NCBI RefSeq assembly: GCF_021026375.1
Contig: NZ_JAJNDB010000003.1
Coordinates: 124,001-188,000, forward strand
DNA length: 64,000 bases
Source of the DNA: Actinomycetospora endophytica
Lineage (GTDB): Bacteria > Actinomycetota > Actinomycetes > Mycobacteriales > Pseudonocardiaceae
Direction of reading: 5' to 3'
Part shown: positions 57,567 through 62,971 of the stretch, one piece after another
Numbering within the stretch: the first letter of the stretch is position 1
Layout: each line of letters begins with the position of its first letter
The notes under the pieces: generated by a model
The model's input: only the letters and a program-made list of their open reading frames with translations
Told to the model about the DNA's origin: nothing
The model's database searches: none
Position numbers and translations under genes: made by a program

Positions 57567-58148
57567 TCACTCGGTGATCACGTCGATCGCGGTGAGCACG
57601 GCGAGGACGACGAGGAGCGCGGCGGCGATCCGGGTCAGCCACTGGTAGGGCACGACCCGGCGCAGCCGGCTGCCGCCGTAGACCGCGAGGACCGAGACGC
57701 CCCAGAGGGCGAGGACCGCGCCGATCCCGATGGCCAGCGGGTCGGCGTAGCGGGCGGTGAGCGTGGCGATGACGATCTGGGTCGGGTCGCCGAGCTCGGC
57801 GAGCAGGATGACCCCGAAGCTGGTGGCCACCACCCGCCAGCGTGAACCGGGCGTCCCGGCGAGCTCCAGGTCGTCGTCATCGTCGTCGTCCTCGCGCAGC
57901 AGCAGGAACGCGCCGACGAGGAAGACGACGACCAGCGCGATCTCGAGCGGCCGGCGGGGGAGCAGCGCCACGAGGCTCCCGGCGACGACCGCGAGCACGG
58001 TGTGCACGACGAACGCCGCCATCACCCCCACCAGCACCAGGCGCGGGGGGAAGCGGCTGCCGAGGACCACCGTGGCCAGGGCGCTGGTGTCGGGCAGCTC
58101 GGCGAGCGCGACGATCCCGAACGTGATGCCGGCGACGGCGAGGTTCAC
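57567..58148 (-). CDS. GDT1/UPF0016-type divalent cation transporter
   Basis: A 193-residue membrane protein made of two related halves, each with the family's E-x-G/L-D motif: ALAELPDTSALATVVL near the start and LLAELGDPTQIVIATL near residue 117. A run of acidic residues (DDDDDDD) marks the loop between halves. GDT1 relatives move Mn2+ or Ca2+. Lying 68 bases after the R2lox-like gene on the same strand, it could balance manganese for a Mn/Fe cofactor; this link is inferred. Confidence 0.86.
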   Translation of the reverse strand: MNLAVAGITFGIVALAELPDTSALATVVLGSRFPPRLVLVGVMAAFVVHTVLAVVAGSLVALLPRRPLEIALVVVFLVGAFLLLREDDDDDDDLELAGTPGSRWRVVATSFGVILLAELGDPTQIVIATLTARYADPLAIGIGAVLALWGVSVLAVYGGSRLRRVVPYQWLTRIAAALLVVLAVLTAIDVITE

Positions 58149-58216
58149 GGCGGTGGGCTACTTTCCTCGAGGGCGTGCCCGACCCTCCGGCACGGCGTTG
58201 ACGAGACGCGGACGGT

Positions 58217-58981
58217 CTACCAGAACTTGATGCCGACGGCCTTGAGACGACGCTGGTGGAGCTGCTTCACCTTGTCGATGTCGTCGGAGGAGATGAGGTT
58301 CCCCCAGGCCTTGGACGCCTCCGTGCCCCGGTTGAGGAGTTCCTCCATCTCGTCGTCGACGATGTCGGCGCTCTGGATCACGCGGGAGCCGAAGCCGATG
58401 TGCCAGCGCTCGTCCCGCAGGACGAGCTCCATCCCCTTGTGGACGCCCGGCATCTTCACCGACAGCTGCGAGAGCGCCTTCAGCAGGGCGTGCTGGCCCG
58501 CGGTGAGGACCACGCCCTCCAGGATCATGTGGTAGAGCCCGACCGCGGAGGTCAGCTCCTCCTGGTCGTCGGCGAGGGCATAGGCGAGGGCCGGGAGGCG
58601 CTCCTCGAACAGTTCGAGCAGCTCCGGGCTGACCCGCTCACGGAGGACCTCGAGGCGCTCGGTCATGTTGGCGCCGGGGATACCGGCCACCTCTGAAACG
58701 ACCCGGTCGAAGAACCGGGCGTGACGGGCCTCGTCCCGGGCCTGGGACCGGAAGCACGCCGCCATGGAGTCGTCGATCGTGGCCTTGGCCTCGAACGACG
58801 TCAGGTGCACGGCGACCGACGTCTCGCCCACGCAGAAGCCGGCGAGCAGCCCGAGGATCTGGTCGTACTCCTGGTCCTCGAGCTTGCCCCAGGCCTCGAT
58901 GTCGGCCGTGAGGTCGATTGCGGTCTCGTCCCACTGCAACGAATCGGCGAGTTGGACGAAGTGGCCGTAACCGGTGATCAT
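58217..58981 (-). CDS. R2lox-like (ribonucleotide reductase R2-type) Mn/Fe or diiron oxidase
   Basis: A 254-residue four-helix metal oxidase. The ligands by position are Glu53, Glu84 and His87 (DEARH), Glu155, Glu191 and His194 (ERWH). The spacing matches R2 proteins and especially R2lox (two ExxH pairs, 31, 68 and 36 residues between helices). R2lox-specific marks are also seen: Val56 three residues after the first Glu and Tyr150 five before the third, the pair known to form a Val-Tyr ether cross-link in mycobacterial R2lox. The ATG at 58981 is preceded by GAGG. It follows rubredoxin by 13 bases, which may deliver its electrons. Confidence 0.78.
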   Translation of the reverse strand: MITGYGHFVQLADSLQWDETAIDLTADIEAWGKLEDQEYDQILGLLAGFCVGETSVAVHLTSFEAKATIDDSMAACFRSQARDEARHARFFDRVVSEVAGIPGANMTERLEVLRERVSPELLELFEERLPALAYALADDQEELTSAVGLYHMILEGVVLTAGQHALLKALSQLSVKMPGVHKGMELVLRDERWHIGFGSRVIQSADIVDDEMEELLNRGTEASKAWGNLISSDDIDKVKQLHQRRLKAVGIKFW

Positions 58982-58994
58982 CTGATCGACATCC

Positions 58995-59210
58995 TCACAT
59001 CTCCGGGAACTCGCCCGGTTCCAGCGCGCGGAAGTCCGACTTCTCGGCTCCGCAGATCGGGCACATCCAGTCGTCCGGGATGTCCTCGAAGGGCGTCCCG
59101 GGCGGGATGCCGCTGTCGGGGTCACCCTCCTCCGGATCGTAGATGAAGCCGCACATTTCGCAGAGCCAGCGGACGGCCTCCGGCCCGGCCATCGTCTGAT
59201 CGACAGTCAT
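58995..59210 (-). CDS. Rubredoxin
   Basis: A 71-residue rubredoxin. It has CEMCG (Cys17, Cys20) and [11 protein letters not shown] (Cys50, Cys53), with the usual [20 protein letters not shown] between them, and a 13-residue N-terminal extension. The protein is small and acidic with no signal. It is an electron carrier for iron or diiron oxygenases and peroxidases. Adjacent genes upstream (PqqA-like peptide) and downstream (R2lox-like oxidase) suggest it reduces the oxidase. Confidence 0.95.
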
Positions 59211-59251
59211 GCCATCTCCTGACGGATCCCGACCGAAATCGACGCTGATAC

Positions 59252-59294
59252 GCCGCAGAGGGGCGCCGGAACTCGTCCGGCGCCCCTCCGCGGC
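59252..59294 (-). terminator. Hairpin just after pqqA
   Basis: GAGGGGCGCCGGA and TCCGGCGCCCCTC form a perfect 13-base stem with an ACTCG loop. Beyond one mismatch five more pairs extend it. It begins 11 bases past the peptide stop. No T-tract follows, so partial termination or an RNA-stabilising end is likely. Confidence 0.8.
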
Positions 59295-59304
59295 TTGTCT
59301 CGGG

Positions 59305-59394
59305 TCAGTCGTCCATCTGGGCGACGTACATCGTCACCTCAGGGGCGACTCCGATCTCCTCGAACTGCGGGGTCTCCCACGTCTGGATCTCCAC
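59305..59394 (-). CDS. pqqA: PqqA-like precursor peptide
   Basis: A 29-residue peptide that I read as PqqA. It shows TWETPQF at residues 5-11 and PEVTMYVA at 18-25. In PqqA the conserved Glu and Tyr three residues apart are joined to make PQQ, and here they are Glu19 and Tyr23. AGGAGG at 59403-59408 lies eight bases before the GTG. A longer frame upstream has no good start. It has no leader cleavage site, as in PqqA. It lies between the PQQ-type dehydrogenase and rubredoxin and is bounded by hairpins. The pqqBCDE genes needed in known pathways are not in this window. Confidence 0.85.
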
Positions 59395-59437
59395 GGCTTT
59401 CACCTCCTCGTGAGCGGATGTGGTCCTCGTGCATGGT

Positions 59438-59470
59438 CGGGGTTCACGGGACAAGGCGCCGTGAACCCCG
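59438..59470 (-). terminator. Hairpin between dehydrogenase and pqqA
   Basis: CGGGGTTCACGG and CCGTGAACCCCG form a perfect 12-base stem with a nine-base loop. It starts six bases after the dehydrogenase stop and ends 43 bases before the peptide start. Together with the hairpin at 59252-59294 it brackets pqqA. Confidence 0.8.
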
Positions 59471-59476
59471 CGGTCC

Positions 59477-61162
59477 TCACTCCGGCAGCGCGAAGACGAA
59501 CAGCGCGTCGCCGGCCGCGGCACCCAGGAGGCCGGGCAGGAAGCCCTCGATCCAGCCACCCCAGCCGGTCGGCACGGCCAGGTACTGCCGGCCGTTCACC
59601 GAGTACGTCGACGGGCTCGAGTGGTGCCCGCTGCCGCACTGGAACGACCACAGCTGCTCGCCGGTCGAGGCGTCCAGGGCCACGAGTTCACCCGTCGGCG
59701 TGCCCTGGAACACGAGCCCGCCCGCGGTGGCCAGCGTCGAGGCGCACATCGGGTACTCGTTGTTCCAGCGCCACTTCTCCTCGCCCGTGAGCGGGTCGAT
59801 GGCGGCCACGAACCCGTAGTGGTCGTCGAGGTCGACGGCGACGCCGGCCCCCCAGTACGGGATGCTCTCCTTGAACTCGCGGCGCCTGCGGGTCGCGGTC
59901 GCCCCGACCTCCTGGACCGGCACGTAGATCAGCCCCGTCTGGGGGCTGTAGCACATGTGGGTCCATTCCTTGCCGCCGGCCGGCCCCGGCCAGAAGTGCA
60001 CCGGGACGCCTTCCTCGTCCGGGTAGACCTTCGGCGTGACCTTCCCGTCCGGGGTGATCTCGCCCCAGGTGATGCGGTCGACGAAGGGGAACACCCGCAC
60101 CAGTTCGCCGTTGGTACGGTCCAGGACGAAGAAGTACCCGTTCTTGTCCGCGTGGGCGAGCAGCTTGCGCCCGTCCGGTGCGTCGAACAGGACGTTCTCC
60201 ATCGTGGAGTCGTAGTCCCACAGGTCGTGCGGCGTGAACTGGTAGTGCCAGCGGATCTGGCCGGTGTTCACGTCGACCGCGATGGTCGAGTCGGTGTAGA
60301 GGTTGTCGCCCTCACGGACGCCGCCGTCGAAGTCCGGCGCCGGGTTGCCCGTGCCCTGGTAGAGCAGCTCGAGCTCCGGGTCGTAGCTCGGAGTGACCCA
60401 GCAGTTGGCCCCGCCGCGCTGCCAGGCCTCGCCGTCGTCCGGCCAGGTCTCCGAGCCGGGCTCGCCCGGCTTCGGGATGGTGTAGCAGCGCCAGCGGCGC
60501 TCGCCGGACTGGGCGTCGAAGGCGTCCAGGTGTCCCCGAAGGCCGAACTCCCCGCCGGAGCTCCCGACGATGACCATGTCCTTGACGATCAGCGGCGCGA
60601 CGGTGCCGCTCTCCCCGGCTCGGACGTCGCCGTTGGTCACGTCCCAAACCAGGTCACCGGTCTGTGCGTCGAGCGCGATGATGTGCGCGTTGAGGGTGTA
60701 GAGGTACACCTTGCCGTGGCCCACGGCGACGCCGCGGTTGACGTTTCCGCAGCACAGCGAGACGTCGTAGGGCGAGGCGTGCTTGTAGCGCCAGAGCTCG
60801 TCGCCGGTGACGGCGTCGATGGCCCAGAGCTTGCCTTCCGGACCGGAGACGTACATGACGCCCTCGACGACCAGAGGGGACGCCTCGAACGAGTAGGTCG
60901 ACGCACCGGAGGTCAGGCCGGCCATGCCGGCCTGGAAGACCCACGCGGGGGTCAACTTCTTGACGTTGTCCTTGGTGATCTGGTCCAGGCCGCTGTAGCG
61001 CTGCCCGTCGTAGGTGCCGTAGTAGGTGAGCCAGTTCTGCGGCTCCGACGTCGCGCCCTTGATGCGCTCGTAGTTGACGTCACCGGTGGCGGGCGCGTTG
61101 CCCTTGGTGGCGCTGAGGGTCTTGTGCGAGACGGCCTCGCCGGCGTCCACGTAGTCGGTCAT
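59477..61162 (-). CDS. PQQ-dependent dehydrogenase (quinoprotein beta-propeller)
   Basis: The 561-residue protein follows the eight-bladed propeller of methanol/alcohol dehydrogenases. Visible are NWLTYYGTYDGQRYSGLDQI (residues 43-62), FEASPL with Glu93, the vicinal Cys137-Cys138, and metal ligands inferred as Glu205 (SSGGEFGLRG), Asn273 (GTGNPAP) and Asp316 (LWDYD). Asp318, two residues after the catalytic Asp, is the extra acid associated with lanthanide-dependent members. WGGWIEG is near the end. No signal peptide is evident, unlike most periplasmic relatives. GAGGAG precedes the ATG. Substrate unknown; an alcohol or aldehyde is likely. Confidence 0.88.
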   Translation of the reverse strand: MTDYVDAGEAVSHKTLSATKGNAPATGDVNYERIKGATSEPQNWLTYYGTYDGQRYSGLDQITKDNVKKLTPAWVFQAGMAGLTSGASTYSFEASPLVVEGVMYVSGPEGKLWAIDAVTGDELWRYKHASPYDVSLCCGNVNRGVAVGHGKVYLYTLNAHIIALDAQTGDLVWDVTNGDVRAGESGTVAPLIVKDMVIVGSSGGEFGLRGHLDAFDAQSGERRWRCYTIPKPGEPGSETWPDDGEAWQRGGANCWVTPSYDPELELLYQGTGNPAPDFDGGVREGDNLYTDSTIAVDVNTGQIRWHYQFTPHDLWDYDSTMENVLFDAPDGRKLLAHADKNGYFFVLDRTNGELVRVFPFVDRITWGEITPDGKVTPKVYPDEEGVPVHFWPGPAGGKEWTHMCYSPQTGLIYVPVQEVGATATRRRREFKESIPYWGAGVAVDLDDHYGFVAAIDPLTGEEKWRWNNEYPMCASTLATAGGLVFQGTPTGELVALDASTGEQLWSFQCGSGHHSSPSTYSVNGRQYLAVPTGWGGWIEGFLPGLLGAAAGDALFVFALPE

Positions 61163-61195
61163 GACGAATTCTCCTCTCTCGGTGTGGGCGCGAAC

Positions 61196-61657
61196 TCAGG
61201 GACGAGGCTGGGGCGGACGGTCGATCTTGGCCGAGTCGGGGACCTCGCCACCGAACACGAGCGCCGCGGTCAGCCCGCGCCCCTCGTCGTTGCCGGTCGT
61301 GGAGCCGTAGTAGTAGGTCCCAGGTCCGCCGAGGCTGAGGCGGGCCGTACCCTTGGAGTGGTTGACCAACCAGATGATCTTGGGGTCACCGTTGTTGGGC
61401 AGCACCGCGCAGTGGGTGTTCTTGTCGTCGTTGATGAGCGTGAGCTCGACCTCGCCGCCCTCGGGGAACACGAGGATCGAGGGCTCCCAGATCAGCTCGT
61501 CCTCCGGGATCCGCACCGTCGCGCGCATGATCCCGTCGGAGCCCTTCTCGCCGTACCCGACGCTCCCGGTACCGAGCAGGCGGCCGAGGGCCGTCCTGTT
61601 CTGCCCGTCCAGGCCCGCTGCGTGCAACTCTTCTGATCGATTGTCCGTGGCCGTCAT
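61196..61657 (-). CDS. Cupredoxin-fold protein without type 1 copper ligand set
   Basis: A 153-residue protein whose strand pattern (RIPEDELIWEPSILVFPEGG; VELTLINDDKNTHCAVLPNN; GPGTYYYGST) resembles plastocyanin/azurin-like cupredoxins. His82, Cys83 and His100 are present, but the C-terminal Cys-x-His-x-Met ligand loop is absent. It has no signal peptide. It directly precedes the PQQ dehydrogenase (33-base gap) and may serve as partner or chaperone instead of a copper electron carrier. AGGAGG lies eight bases before the ATG. Confidence 0.72.
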   Translation of the reverse strand: MTATDNRSEELHAAGLDGQNRTALGRLLGTGSVGYGEKGSDGIMRATVRIPEDELIWEPSILVFPEGGEVELTLINDDKNTHCAVLPNNGDPKIIWLVNHSKGTARLSLGGPGTYYYGSTTGNDEGRGLTAALVFGGEVPDSAKIDRPPQPRP

Positions 61658-61758
61658 CGGCCGTACCTCCTCGTCTCGAATGCCCTACCTGTCGGCAGCG
61701 AGAGCGAGCGGAGCGAACGTCGTCGCGCGTCCTGCGGACGCGTTCCGGGCGTTGCCAT
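61654..61758 (-). CDS. 34-residue Arg-rich small ORF before cupredoxin
   Basis: A possible small gene whose TGA overlaps the cupredoxin ATG (ATGA). GGAGGAG lies just upstream of its ATG, so translation looks plausible. The peptide has about nine arginines, no hydrophobic signal and no known motif. It could be a leader that couples translation or senses arginine or translation state, or it could be a chance frame. I do not recognise it. Confidence 0.45.
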   Translation of the reverse strand: MATPGTRPQDARRRSLRSLSLPTGRAFETRRYGR

Positions 61759-62218: not shown

Positions 62219-62971
62219 GTGCAGGAGTTCGGGTCACCCGACACACTCGCCCGGATCGGCGCCGAGTGCGCCCACGCCGACAGCGTCGAGCTCAAGACCC
62301 TGCTCCTGCCCCCGGCCGGGCGAGCCGCCGAGGCCCTGACCGGGCGTGGCGCCCCGACCTGGAGCGTCCGCCAGGTGTACCTGCTCGACACCGCCGAGCT
62401 CGGCCTGGTCCGCGCGGGCGTGGAGATCCGCCTCCGACGGCGGGCGCGGGGTCGCTTCGACCTCGCGGTCTCGGCCCACCACAACGGCATCTCGCGCGAT
62501 CGGATACCGCGGCGCGGTGTGCGGGTGGAGATCGACGTGGTGCCCGGGGGGATGTGGCAGGACGTCGAGGTCCGGCGCGAGATCGACTCCGCGGCGGCGG
62601 CCGAGGTGATCGCCGGCGTGGTCAAGTCGGGTGAGGTGCTCTCCCCGACGCAGCGGGCGTGGGCCTGCCGCGGCGGCGAGGAGGTCCTGGACGACGCCAT
62701 GTTGTGGGACCTGCACGTGCACGGACCGCTGGTGGTGCGGCGGGTCAAGGTCTCGGCGCCGGCGCTGGGCCTGCGCCGCGCCGACCTCGAGCACTTCCGG
62801 TTCCCCAGCGGCCGTGAGCTCGTGGAGATCTCCACCCGGTGCTCGCCGCGGGAGGTGGGCCCGACCGCGACGGCGTTCGAGCAGCTCCTCGACGAGCGCG
62901 GCGTCGCGATCGCGCCGGGCTACCGGACGAAGACCGCGATGTGGCGCGAGGAGATCGACGGCGGGAGCTGA
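62219..62971 (+). CDS. CYTH-like domain protein
   Basis: A 250-residue protein with the CYTH/triphosphate tunnel pattern: VYLLDTAELGLVRAGVEIRL with the Arg series, and a C-terminal VEISTRCSPREVGPTATAFE. The first strand reads SVELKTLL instead of the usual ExExK, so one metal-binding Glu is lost. It may bind a phosphorylated ligand without adenylate cyclase or thiamine triphosphatase activity. GGGAGG precedes the GTG. Confidence 0.75.
   Translation: MQEFGSPDTLARIGAECAHADSVELKTLLLPPAGRAAEALTGRGAPTWSVRQVYLLDTAELGLVRAGVEIRLRRRARGRFDLAVSAHHNGISRDRIPRRGVRVEIDVVPGGMWQDVEVRREIDSAAAAEVIAGVVKSGEVLSPTQRAWACRGGEEVLDDAMLWDLHVHGPLVVRRVKVSAPALGLRRADLEHFRFPSGRELVEISTRCSPREVGPTATAFEQLLDERGVAIAPGYRTKTAMWREEIDGGS

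Follow-up and report, generated by a model that had tools for sequence, protein, structure and literature searches.

We describe here a conserved set of five genes within a 64,000-nucleotide stretch of the Actinomycetospora endophytica genome (C11:124001-188000 of an assembly of 6.98 Mb in 17 contigs, 96.7% complete), hereafter called the window, in which a rubredoxin and an R2-like metal oxidase are inherited together with one subtype of dehydrogenase dependent on pyrroloquinoline quinone (PQQ). On the minus strand, the genes follow each other in the order TIGR04339 protein, PQQ dehydrogenase, PqqA, rubredoxin, R2-like oxidase and GDT1 transporter (Table 1), of which the first five form a real conserved set. 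Their inheritance favors a view whereby the presence of the oxidase follows the dehydrogenase and TIGR04339 genes rather than the PQQ biosynthesis genes. We tentatively interpret the rubredoxin-oxidase pair as an oxygenase that receives electrons from rubredoxin and serves a quinoprotein in the cytoplasm, an explanation that we prefer while giving it somewhat less than an even chance, and in which we infer the metal, the electron flow, the hydroxylation and the substrate. A first-pass annotation of the DNA had listed seven minus-strand genes running together. Six of them are identified here (57567-61657), whereas the seventh, an arginine-rich open reading frame, was rejected as a gene, because frames at the same place in 17 relatives are absent or unrelated in sequence. 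Profile cut-offs confirm its PQQ-type dehydrogenase, its rubredoxin and its PqqA-like peptide, the last of which exceeds both curated cut-offs (32.6 versus 21.1 bits for Pfam, 30.3 versus 20 for NCBIfam).

How tightly is the oxidase tied to the dehydrogenase? In an unbiased sample of 397 genomes of the order, with an orthologous oxidase defined by at least 60% identity and at most six candidates scored per genome, such an oxidase was found in five genomes, two of which (G314 and G385) are closely related. The TIGR04339 protein was found in 31 genomes (in 30 of them above cut-off); dehydrogenase genes were located at 34 places, spread over 30 genomes. Five of these dehydrogenases reach an identity of 85% or more, and it is precisely these five that adjoin the oxidase, whereas none of the remaining 29, all at 74% identity or less, has an orthologous oxidase adjoining; two of these 29 places represent second copies within oxidase-bearing genomes. 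A wider scan with two exact peptide patterns taken from the five oxidases, run against a species-genome collection covering 84,980 species and prone to miss distant members, returned 36 oxidase loci, mostly from Actinomycetospora and Pseudonocardia, but also from Saccharopolyspora and some metagenome-assembled genomes. For both the oxidase and the dehydrogenase of the window, the closest relatives with a name are Actinomycetospora sequences. These loci are oxidase-bearing by construction, so that the 397-genome sample alone, with its five bearers, is unbiased. Both the TIGR04339 and the dehydrogenase genes are present in 31 of the 36 loci; the pair is missing from four loci at contig ends (L098, L100, L113 and L118) and from L088. 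The rubredoxin is likewise present in 31 (absent from L088, L107, L113, L114 and L118), and neither rubredoxin nor an orthologous oxidase was matched in 30 oxidase-free regions (L073-L082, L168-L187).

The first-pass annotation had proposed the conservation of gene order as a check, and the order holds in a particular sense: the TIGR04339-dehydrogenase pair is kept in most loci, and the rubredoxin-oxidase pair moves around it but stays. It is placed between pqqA and pqqB, before the TIGR04339 gene or after pqqE. In the window genome and in L094, pqqBCDE lie elsewhere, and the rubredoxin-oxidase pair remains beside the TIGR04339, dehydrogenase and pqqA genes; L116 resembles this arrangement, and PqqC was not found in its 3.5-Mb assembly.

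Phylogenies, all of them quick trees computed without bootstrap except for the oxidase/R2lox tree discussed below, bear on the question of the partner. In the dehydrogenase tree, oxidase-bearing and oxidase-free rows (27 versus 29) are split on one branch with a Shimodaira-Hasegawa-like approximate likelihood ratio test (SH-aLRT) value of 94, which rises to 100 for the 26 oxidase-bearing rows without L114; this tree omitted L071, L086, L090, L091, L095, L106, L117 and rows of less than 80% coverage. An earlier tree of 34 versus 9 rows gave the same split (SH-aLRT 92), and 13 alignment positions separate the oxidase-bearing dehydrogenases from the others. For TIGR04339, a single oxidase-bearing clade is rejected by the approximately unbiased (AU) test when all rows are included (29 versus 30, p 0.002), but is not rejected once L073 is left out (29 versus 29, AU 0.51). 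There are two exceptions. The oxidase-free L073, a second TIGR04339 copy from genome G267, which does bear the oxidase, falls inside the clade; L114, although oxidase-bearing, falls outside. No dehydrogenase was found beside the TIGR04339 gene of L073 (L073:9191-9766). In the combined pqqB, pqqC and pqqE tree (28 versus 15 rows; rows without any one of the three genes were dropped), one oxidase-bearing clade is rejected (AU p 0.001) and three changes are required, because Saccharopolyspora and L114 sit among oxidase-free rows. The Saccharopolyspora row thus groups with the oxidase-bearing rows for TIGR04339 and the dehydrogenase, but not for the biosynthesis genes. As the oxidase-bearing dehydrogenases form one group and pqqB, pqqC and pqqE do not, a role of the oxidase with the dehydrogenase is favored over one in PQQ maturation, and the shared inheritance, in some actinobacteria of the soil, of the dehydrogenase genes with rubredoxin and oxidase suggests that the oxidase works together with the dehydrogenase.

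The peptide and its pathway turn out to be ordinary. The window copy is the only PqqA match in the whole genome, and pqqB, pqqC, pqqD and pqqE lie adjacent to each other on a different contig, C14. Because all four pass their curated cut-offs (373 versus 245, 309 versus 240, 78 versus 46 and 519 versus 381 bits, respectively), the window peptide is served by a full ordinary PQQ pathway, split over two loci. Many relatives join the same five genes to pqqBCDE in a single cluster. The first-pass proposal of a self-contained module was therefore rejected, and a complete pqq set elsewhere is what that annotation had itself named as refuting its reading of the peptide; also rejected was the idea that the oxidase substitutes for PqqB or PqqC, because both are retained. 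The accompanying statement that the window holds none of pqqB to pqqE agrees with the PqqC and PqqE matches of the genome, which lie outside it; for PqqB and PqqD, the window itself was not profile-searched. Of 35 oxidase-bearing genomes searched, 32 gave a PqqC match (31 above cut-off) and 31 a PqqA match, and the genomes without PqqC (three) or PqqA (four) are metagenome-assembled according to their record titles. In one Actinomycetospora group, a second pqqA is located between oxidase and pqqB (core at L083:10897-10933; similar in L084-L087, L089-L092 and L095), and the pqqB, pqqC and pqqE genes of this group form a branch apart from those of the other group. In L098, which comes from a metagenome-assembled genome of the Pseudonocardiaceae, rubredoxin and oxidase are followed by a broken pqqE remnant (L098:2600-4600).

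The oxidase resembles R2lox, to which its nearest sequences in the PDB belong. The six R2 ligands E57, E88, H91, E159, E195 and H198 (numbering of P0005), together with V60 and Y154, are invariant in five of five sequences and, with numbering shifted by four, in 30 of 30. Val at ligand+3 and Tyr at ligand-5 match the V72-Y162 pair that, in the part of the published account consulted, forms the ether cross-link of R2lox (PMC6060897). This pair is not exclusive to R2lox, being present in some other R2-like rows. The 14 rows of the oxidase family form one clade (100/100), and seven R2lox rows, three named through NCBIfam and the others by their place in a tree for which the program warned of long branches, form a separate one (100/100). 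Identity to 14 outgroup R2-like rows, R2lox among them, is 22-27%, and the scores against the five NCBIfam R2lox models fall far below each cut-off (78.4 versus 315, 77.5 versus 194, 75.6 versus 274, 56.9 versus 286 and 45.1 versus 346). Most members of the family conserve a C-terminal K-F-W. The separate clade and the scores reject a canonical R2lox identity, so that the earlier label holds for resemblance and fails for membership: judged by its sequence, the enzyme is R2lox-like, not R2lox.

The dehydrogenase is the sole one found in the window genome with its own sequence as query. All 45 dehydrogenases collected have a further Asp two residues beyond the catalytic one (W-D-[YF]-D) as well as a vicinal Cys pair; the metal-site Glu pattern is present in 34 and the Asn pattern in 44. 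The best-matched PDB chain, 6zcv, also has the second Asp, whereas Ser or Thr takes its place in 1flg, 1kb0 and 1kv9; we take 6zcv to be the lanthanide enzyme PedH. According to the portion of the literature consulted (PMC10875860), XoxF-type enzymes require this additional Asp to bind lanthanides. Judged by these residues, the window enzyme probably uses a lanthanide.

PQQ alcohol dehydrogenases are usually exported by means of a signal peptide. The first-pass annotation had seen no such peptide here, and the observation extends to the relatives: hydropathy and a search for the twin-arginine translocation (Tat) motif, rather than SignalP, revealed no N-terminal export signal, whether among 45 dehydrogenases or among 46 TIGR04339 proteins. 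The highest 12-residue hydropathy among the dehydrogenase N-termini is 1.38, compared with 2.32 for a GDT1 control; an exception on the TIGR04339 side is L099, in which the in-frame sequence ahead of the start codon encodes a hydrophobic stretch. Both proteins thus look cytoplasmic, in the collected family as in the window. The TIGR04339 protein had been read as cupredoxin-like; a conserved gene is indeed present, but it is identified by its TIGR04339 and PF23509 matches, and His and Cys are conserved in 19 sequences. A copper protein was not upheld, and profile comparison returned no solved relative.

How might these proteins act together? This genome would have its PQQ supercluster split in two, with the five genes making up one of the halves. 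We envision that pqqA yields the PQQ precursor, that this is matured by pqqBCDE encoded on the other contig and that PQQ then loads the dehydrogenase within the cytoplasm, where the enzyme, with PQQ and probably a lanthanide, would oxidize a small alcohol. Rubredoxin and oxidase would form an accessory pair acquired together with this dehydrogenase subtype. The rubredoxin most likely supplies electrons to the oxidase, which would use a di-iron or Mn/Fe site to activate O2 and would hydroxylate a compound, the resulting alcohol then being oxidized by the dehydrogenase. Hydroxylation is proposed by analogy with GkR2loxI, the gene of which is likewise located near alcohol and aldehyde dehydrogenase genes, as far as the available part of that account goes. 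Some neighbors hint at methanol or another small alcohol as the substrate: a gene for glutathione-independent formaldehyde dehydrogenase lies near the dehydrogenase gene in eight Actinomycetospora loci (one was scanned, at 742 versus 637 bits), and distant forms adjoin TIGR04339 in L114 and in some oxidase-free clusters (both scanned forms fall below cut-off).

Several observations weigh against a partnership of oxidase and dehydrogenase. The pairwise distances of the oxidase across 25 genomes correlate less well with those of the dehydrogenase (0.64) than with those of pqqE (0.82), TIGR04339 (0.82) and pqqC (0.80); the values for rubredoxin, pqqD and pqqB are 0.76, 0.74 and 0.65. L114 is weakly placed in the dehydrogenase tree (94) and sits on the oxidase-free side of the TIGR04339 tree, and the window genome's own formaldehyde dehydrogenase gene (TIGR02819, above cut-off) is located on another contig (C16). 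In L088, pqqA and a cation exchanger accompany the oxidase, whereas a dehydrogenase is absent, and the oxidase directly adjoins pqqB in five loci (L069, L093, L096, L097 and L115). The L088 genes (L088:9839-11921) include a second oxidase copy in A. callitridis and may be a remnant of a duplicated cluster. Finally, the association may reflect a single acquisition followed by vertical inheritance. Conceivably, then, the pair came to lie next to this dehydrogenase through a single event and has since been co-inherited while serving an unrelated function, a scenario consistent with the single change required by the dehydrogenase tree and with the few genera that carry the pair. We nevertheless regard it as unlikely, because the location of the pair within the cluster varies among three places, and still all five dehydrogenases of this subtype among the 397 genomes have it beside them, and because it stayed while pqqBCDE differ or lie elsewhere.

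Alternatively, the oxidase might be an accessory enzyme of PQQ maturation that hydroxylates or oxidizes PqqA or a PQQ intermediate, as the first-pass annotation had suggested for peptide or quinone. Its placement between pqqA and pqqB in one arrangement, its position directly before pqqB in the five loci listed above, the pqqA-oxidase pair of L088 and the correlation with pqqE keep this conceivable, and an accessory enzyme could still act with any pqqBCDE. We consider it rather improbable all the same: pqqB and pqqC are retained beside the oxidase, PqqB to PqqE of the window genome all exceed their cut-offs, the presence of the oxidase departs from the combined biosynthesis tree, and the 15 oxidase-free loci in that tree possess pqqB, pqqC and pqqE. 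The pair might also constitute an electron sink, whereby rubredoxin takes electrons from the quinoprotein or helps to clear its peroxide and the oxidase reduces O2 or peroxide to water. Rubredoxin would then carry the electrons because no cytochrome c partner is obvious for a quinoprotein in the cytoplasm; consistently, no conserved cytochrome c gene was recognized near 17 oxidase loci, with neighbors judged by eye and without a profile scan. Rubredoxin-fed enzymes that reduce O2 or peroxide exist, such as rubredoxin:oxygen oxidoreductase and rubrerythrin, and the co-inheritance with the dehydrogenase subtype speaks for this reading as well. However, 29 dehydrogenases of the same family do without the oxidase, and the oxidase has the Val and Tyr residues that form the ether link in R2lox, according to the section of the account consulted (PMC6060897). 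We thus give an electron sink a low probability, and a rubredoxin-fed oxygenase that serves the dehydrogenase remains the explanation we prefer.

The genes are in line, as the first-pass annotation had noted, but a single uniform transcript is doubtful because pqqA is separated from the rubredoxin gene by a predicted stem-loop. It is present in six of seven folded loci (absent from L087), and a stem of at least 12 pairs is predicted directly after pqqA in 39 of 45 cases from oxidase-bearing loci and in 9 of 17 from oxidase-free ones. Such stems are rarer behind the other genes of oxidase-bearing loci (TIGR04339, 0/36; rubredoxin, 0/36; dehydrogenase, 4/34; oxidase, 2/40; GDT1, 2/8; pqqB, 3/29; pqqC, 7/29; pqqD, 1/29; pqqE, 8/30) and of oxidase-free ones (TIGR04339, 2/24; dehydrogenase, 6/24; pqqB, 0/16; pqqC, 0/17; pqqD, 1/15; pqqE, 0/11). 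The strong pqqA stem-loop thus recurs across PQQ clusters of actinobacteria, whether or not they include the oxidase. By its predicted fold, it is terminator- or attenuator-like, and it may lift the level of the pqqA message above that of the genes behind it.

Table 1. Features of the dehydrogenase-rubredoxin-oxidase locus (positions within the window)
Feature	Position	Strand	Support
TIGR04339/PF23509 "MSMEG_3727 PQQ-associated" protein	61196..61657	-	TIGR04339, 248.7 versus cut-off 75; PF23509, 242.2 versus 27
PQQ-dependent alcohol dehydrogenase; second Asp D318 of lanthanide type	59477..61162	-	TIGR03075, 627.9 versus cut-off 480 bits
pqqA, 29 amino acids; GTG start set by comparison with relatives; E-V-T-M-Y core (Glu-x3-Tyr)	59305..59394	-	PF08042, TIGR02107
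Predicted stem-loop, 19 bp, directly 3' of pqqA, without T-run	59252..59294	-	z -5.2 versus shuffles
Rubredoxin	58995..59210	-	PF00301, 86.9 bits versus 23; NF045768, 92 versus cut-off 90
R2-like metal oxidase, 254 amino acids	58217..58981	-	PF00268, 58.6 bits versus cut-off 33.6
GDT1 divalent cation/proton antiporter, loosely linked	57567..58148	-	PF01169
Divergent gene, family unassigned; start set by comparison with relatives	62219..62971	+	Recurs in oxidase loci

The remaining neighbors are more variable. GDT1, which had been counted as a member of the cassette, is present here but occurs in only seven of the 36 oxidase loci, all from Actinomycetospora and at varying places. A Na/Ca-exchanger-type protein is found in 23 of 35 oxidase loci tested and in 14 of 20 oxidase-free regions; in this genome, it adjoins pqqE on C14 (L007:9031-10185). 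The divergent gene occurs in 19 of 35 oxidase loci and in none of 20 oxidase-free regions; searches of Pfam and NCBIfam gave no match for it, and no hit in the PDB improved on E 0.39.

A PQQ cluster with TIGR04339 is already known to databases; the addition of rubredoxin and R2-like oxidase appears to be new. In keeping with the first-pass statement that no such set was known, no published description of the two joined to a PQQ cluster appeared among the matches listed, and no literature on R2lox combined with rubredoxin was found. Among the closest described systems is the PQQ locus MSMEG_3721-3727 of Mycobacterium smegmatis, where, as with the TIGR04339/TIGR03075 pair, PQQ biosynthesis genes accompany a PQQ alcohol dehydrogenase and a TIGR04339 protein; the part of the published account consulted, on whose description alone the loci were compared, names no rubredoxin or R2-like oxidase (PMC6529628). 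Among R2lox proteins, which share the six metal ligands and the cross-link Val/Tyr and provide the nearest solved sequences, GkR2loxI is presented in the available text as an alkane hydroxylase whose gene adjoins alcohol and aldehyde dehydrogenase genes (PMC10867098). The window oxidase differs from R2lox in its separate clade, its scores far under the cut-offs, the K-F-W terminus of most members and its pairing with rubredoxin. The logic proposed here, a rubredoxin-fed oxygenase beside an alcohol dehydrogenase, is that of AlkB, which hydroxylates alkanes with rubredoxin ahead of an alcohol dehydrogenase step, but here the oxygenase would be soluble and R2-like, and the dehydrogenase a predicted cytoplasmic quinoprotein. 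With the lanthanide quinoproteins XoxF and PedH, window-type dehydrogenases share the second Asp in W-D-[YF]-D and the vicinal Cys pair; they differ by having no visible export signal and, in the loci inspected by eye, no recognized cytochrome c gene nearby.

It is an appealing though doubtful prospect that the oxidase founds a new family, its members being cross-linked R2-like oxygenases that rubredoxin supplies with electrons and that act in an intracellular O2-linked pathway with a cytoplasmic lanthanide-dependent quinoprotein. To our knowledge, the substrates of most R2lox-type enzymes are unsettled, and the tight genomic link of this oxidase with rubredoxin and one dehydrogenase subtype provides a concrete gene pair for tests of function. 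The lack of a recognizable export signal in 45 relatives, in turn, would challenge the rule that PQQ alcohol dehydrogenases act outside the cytoplasm.

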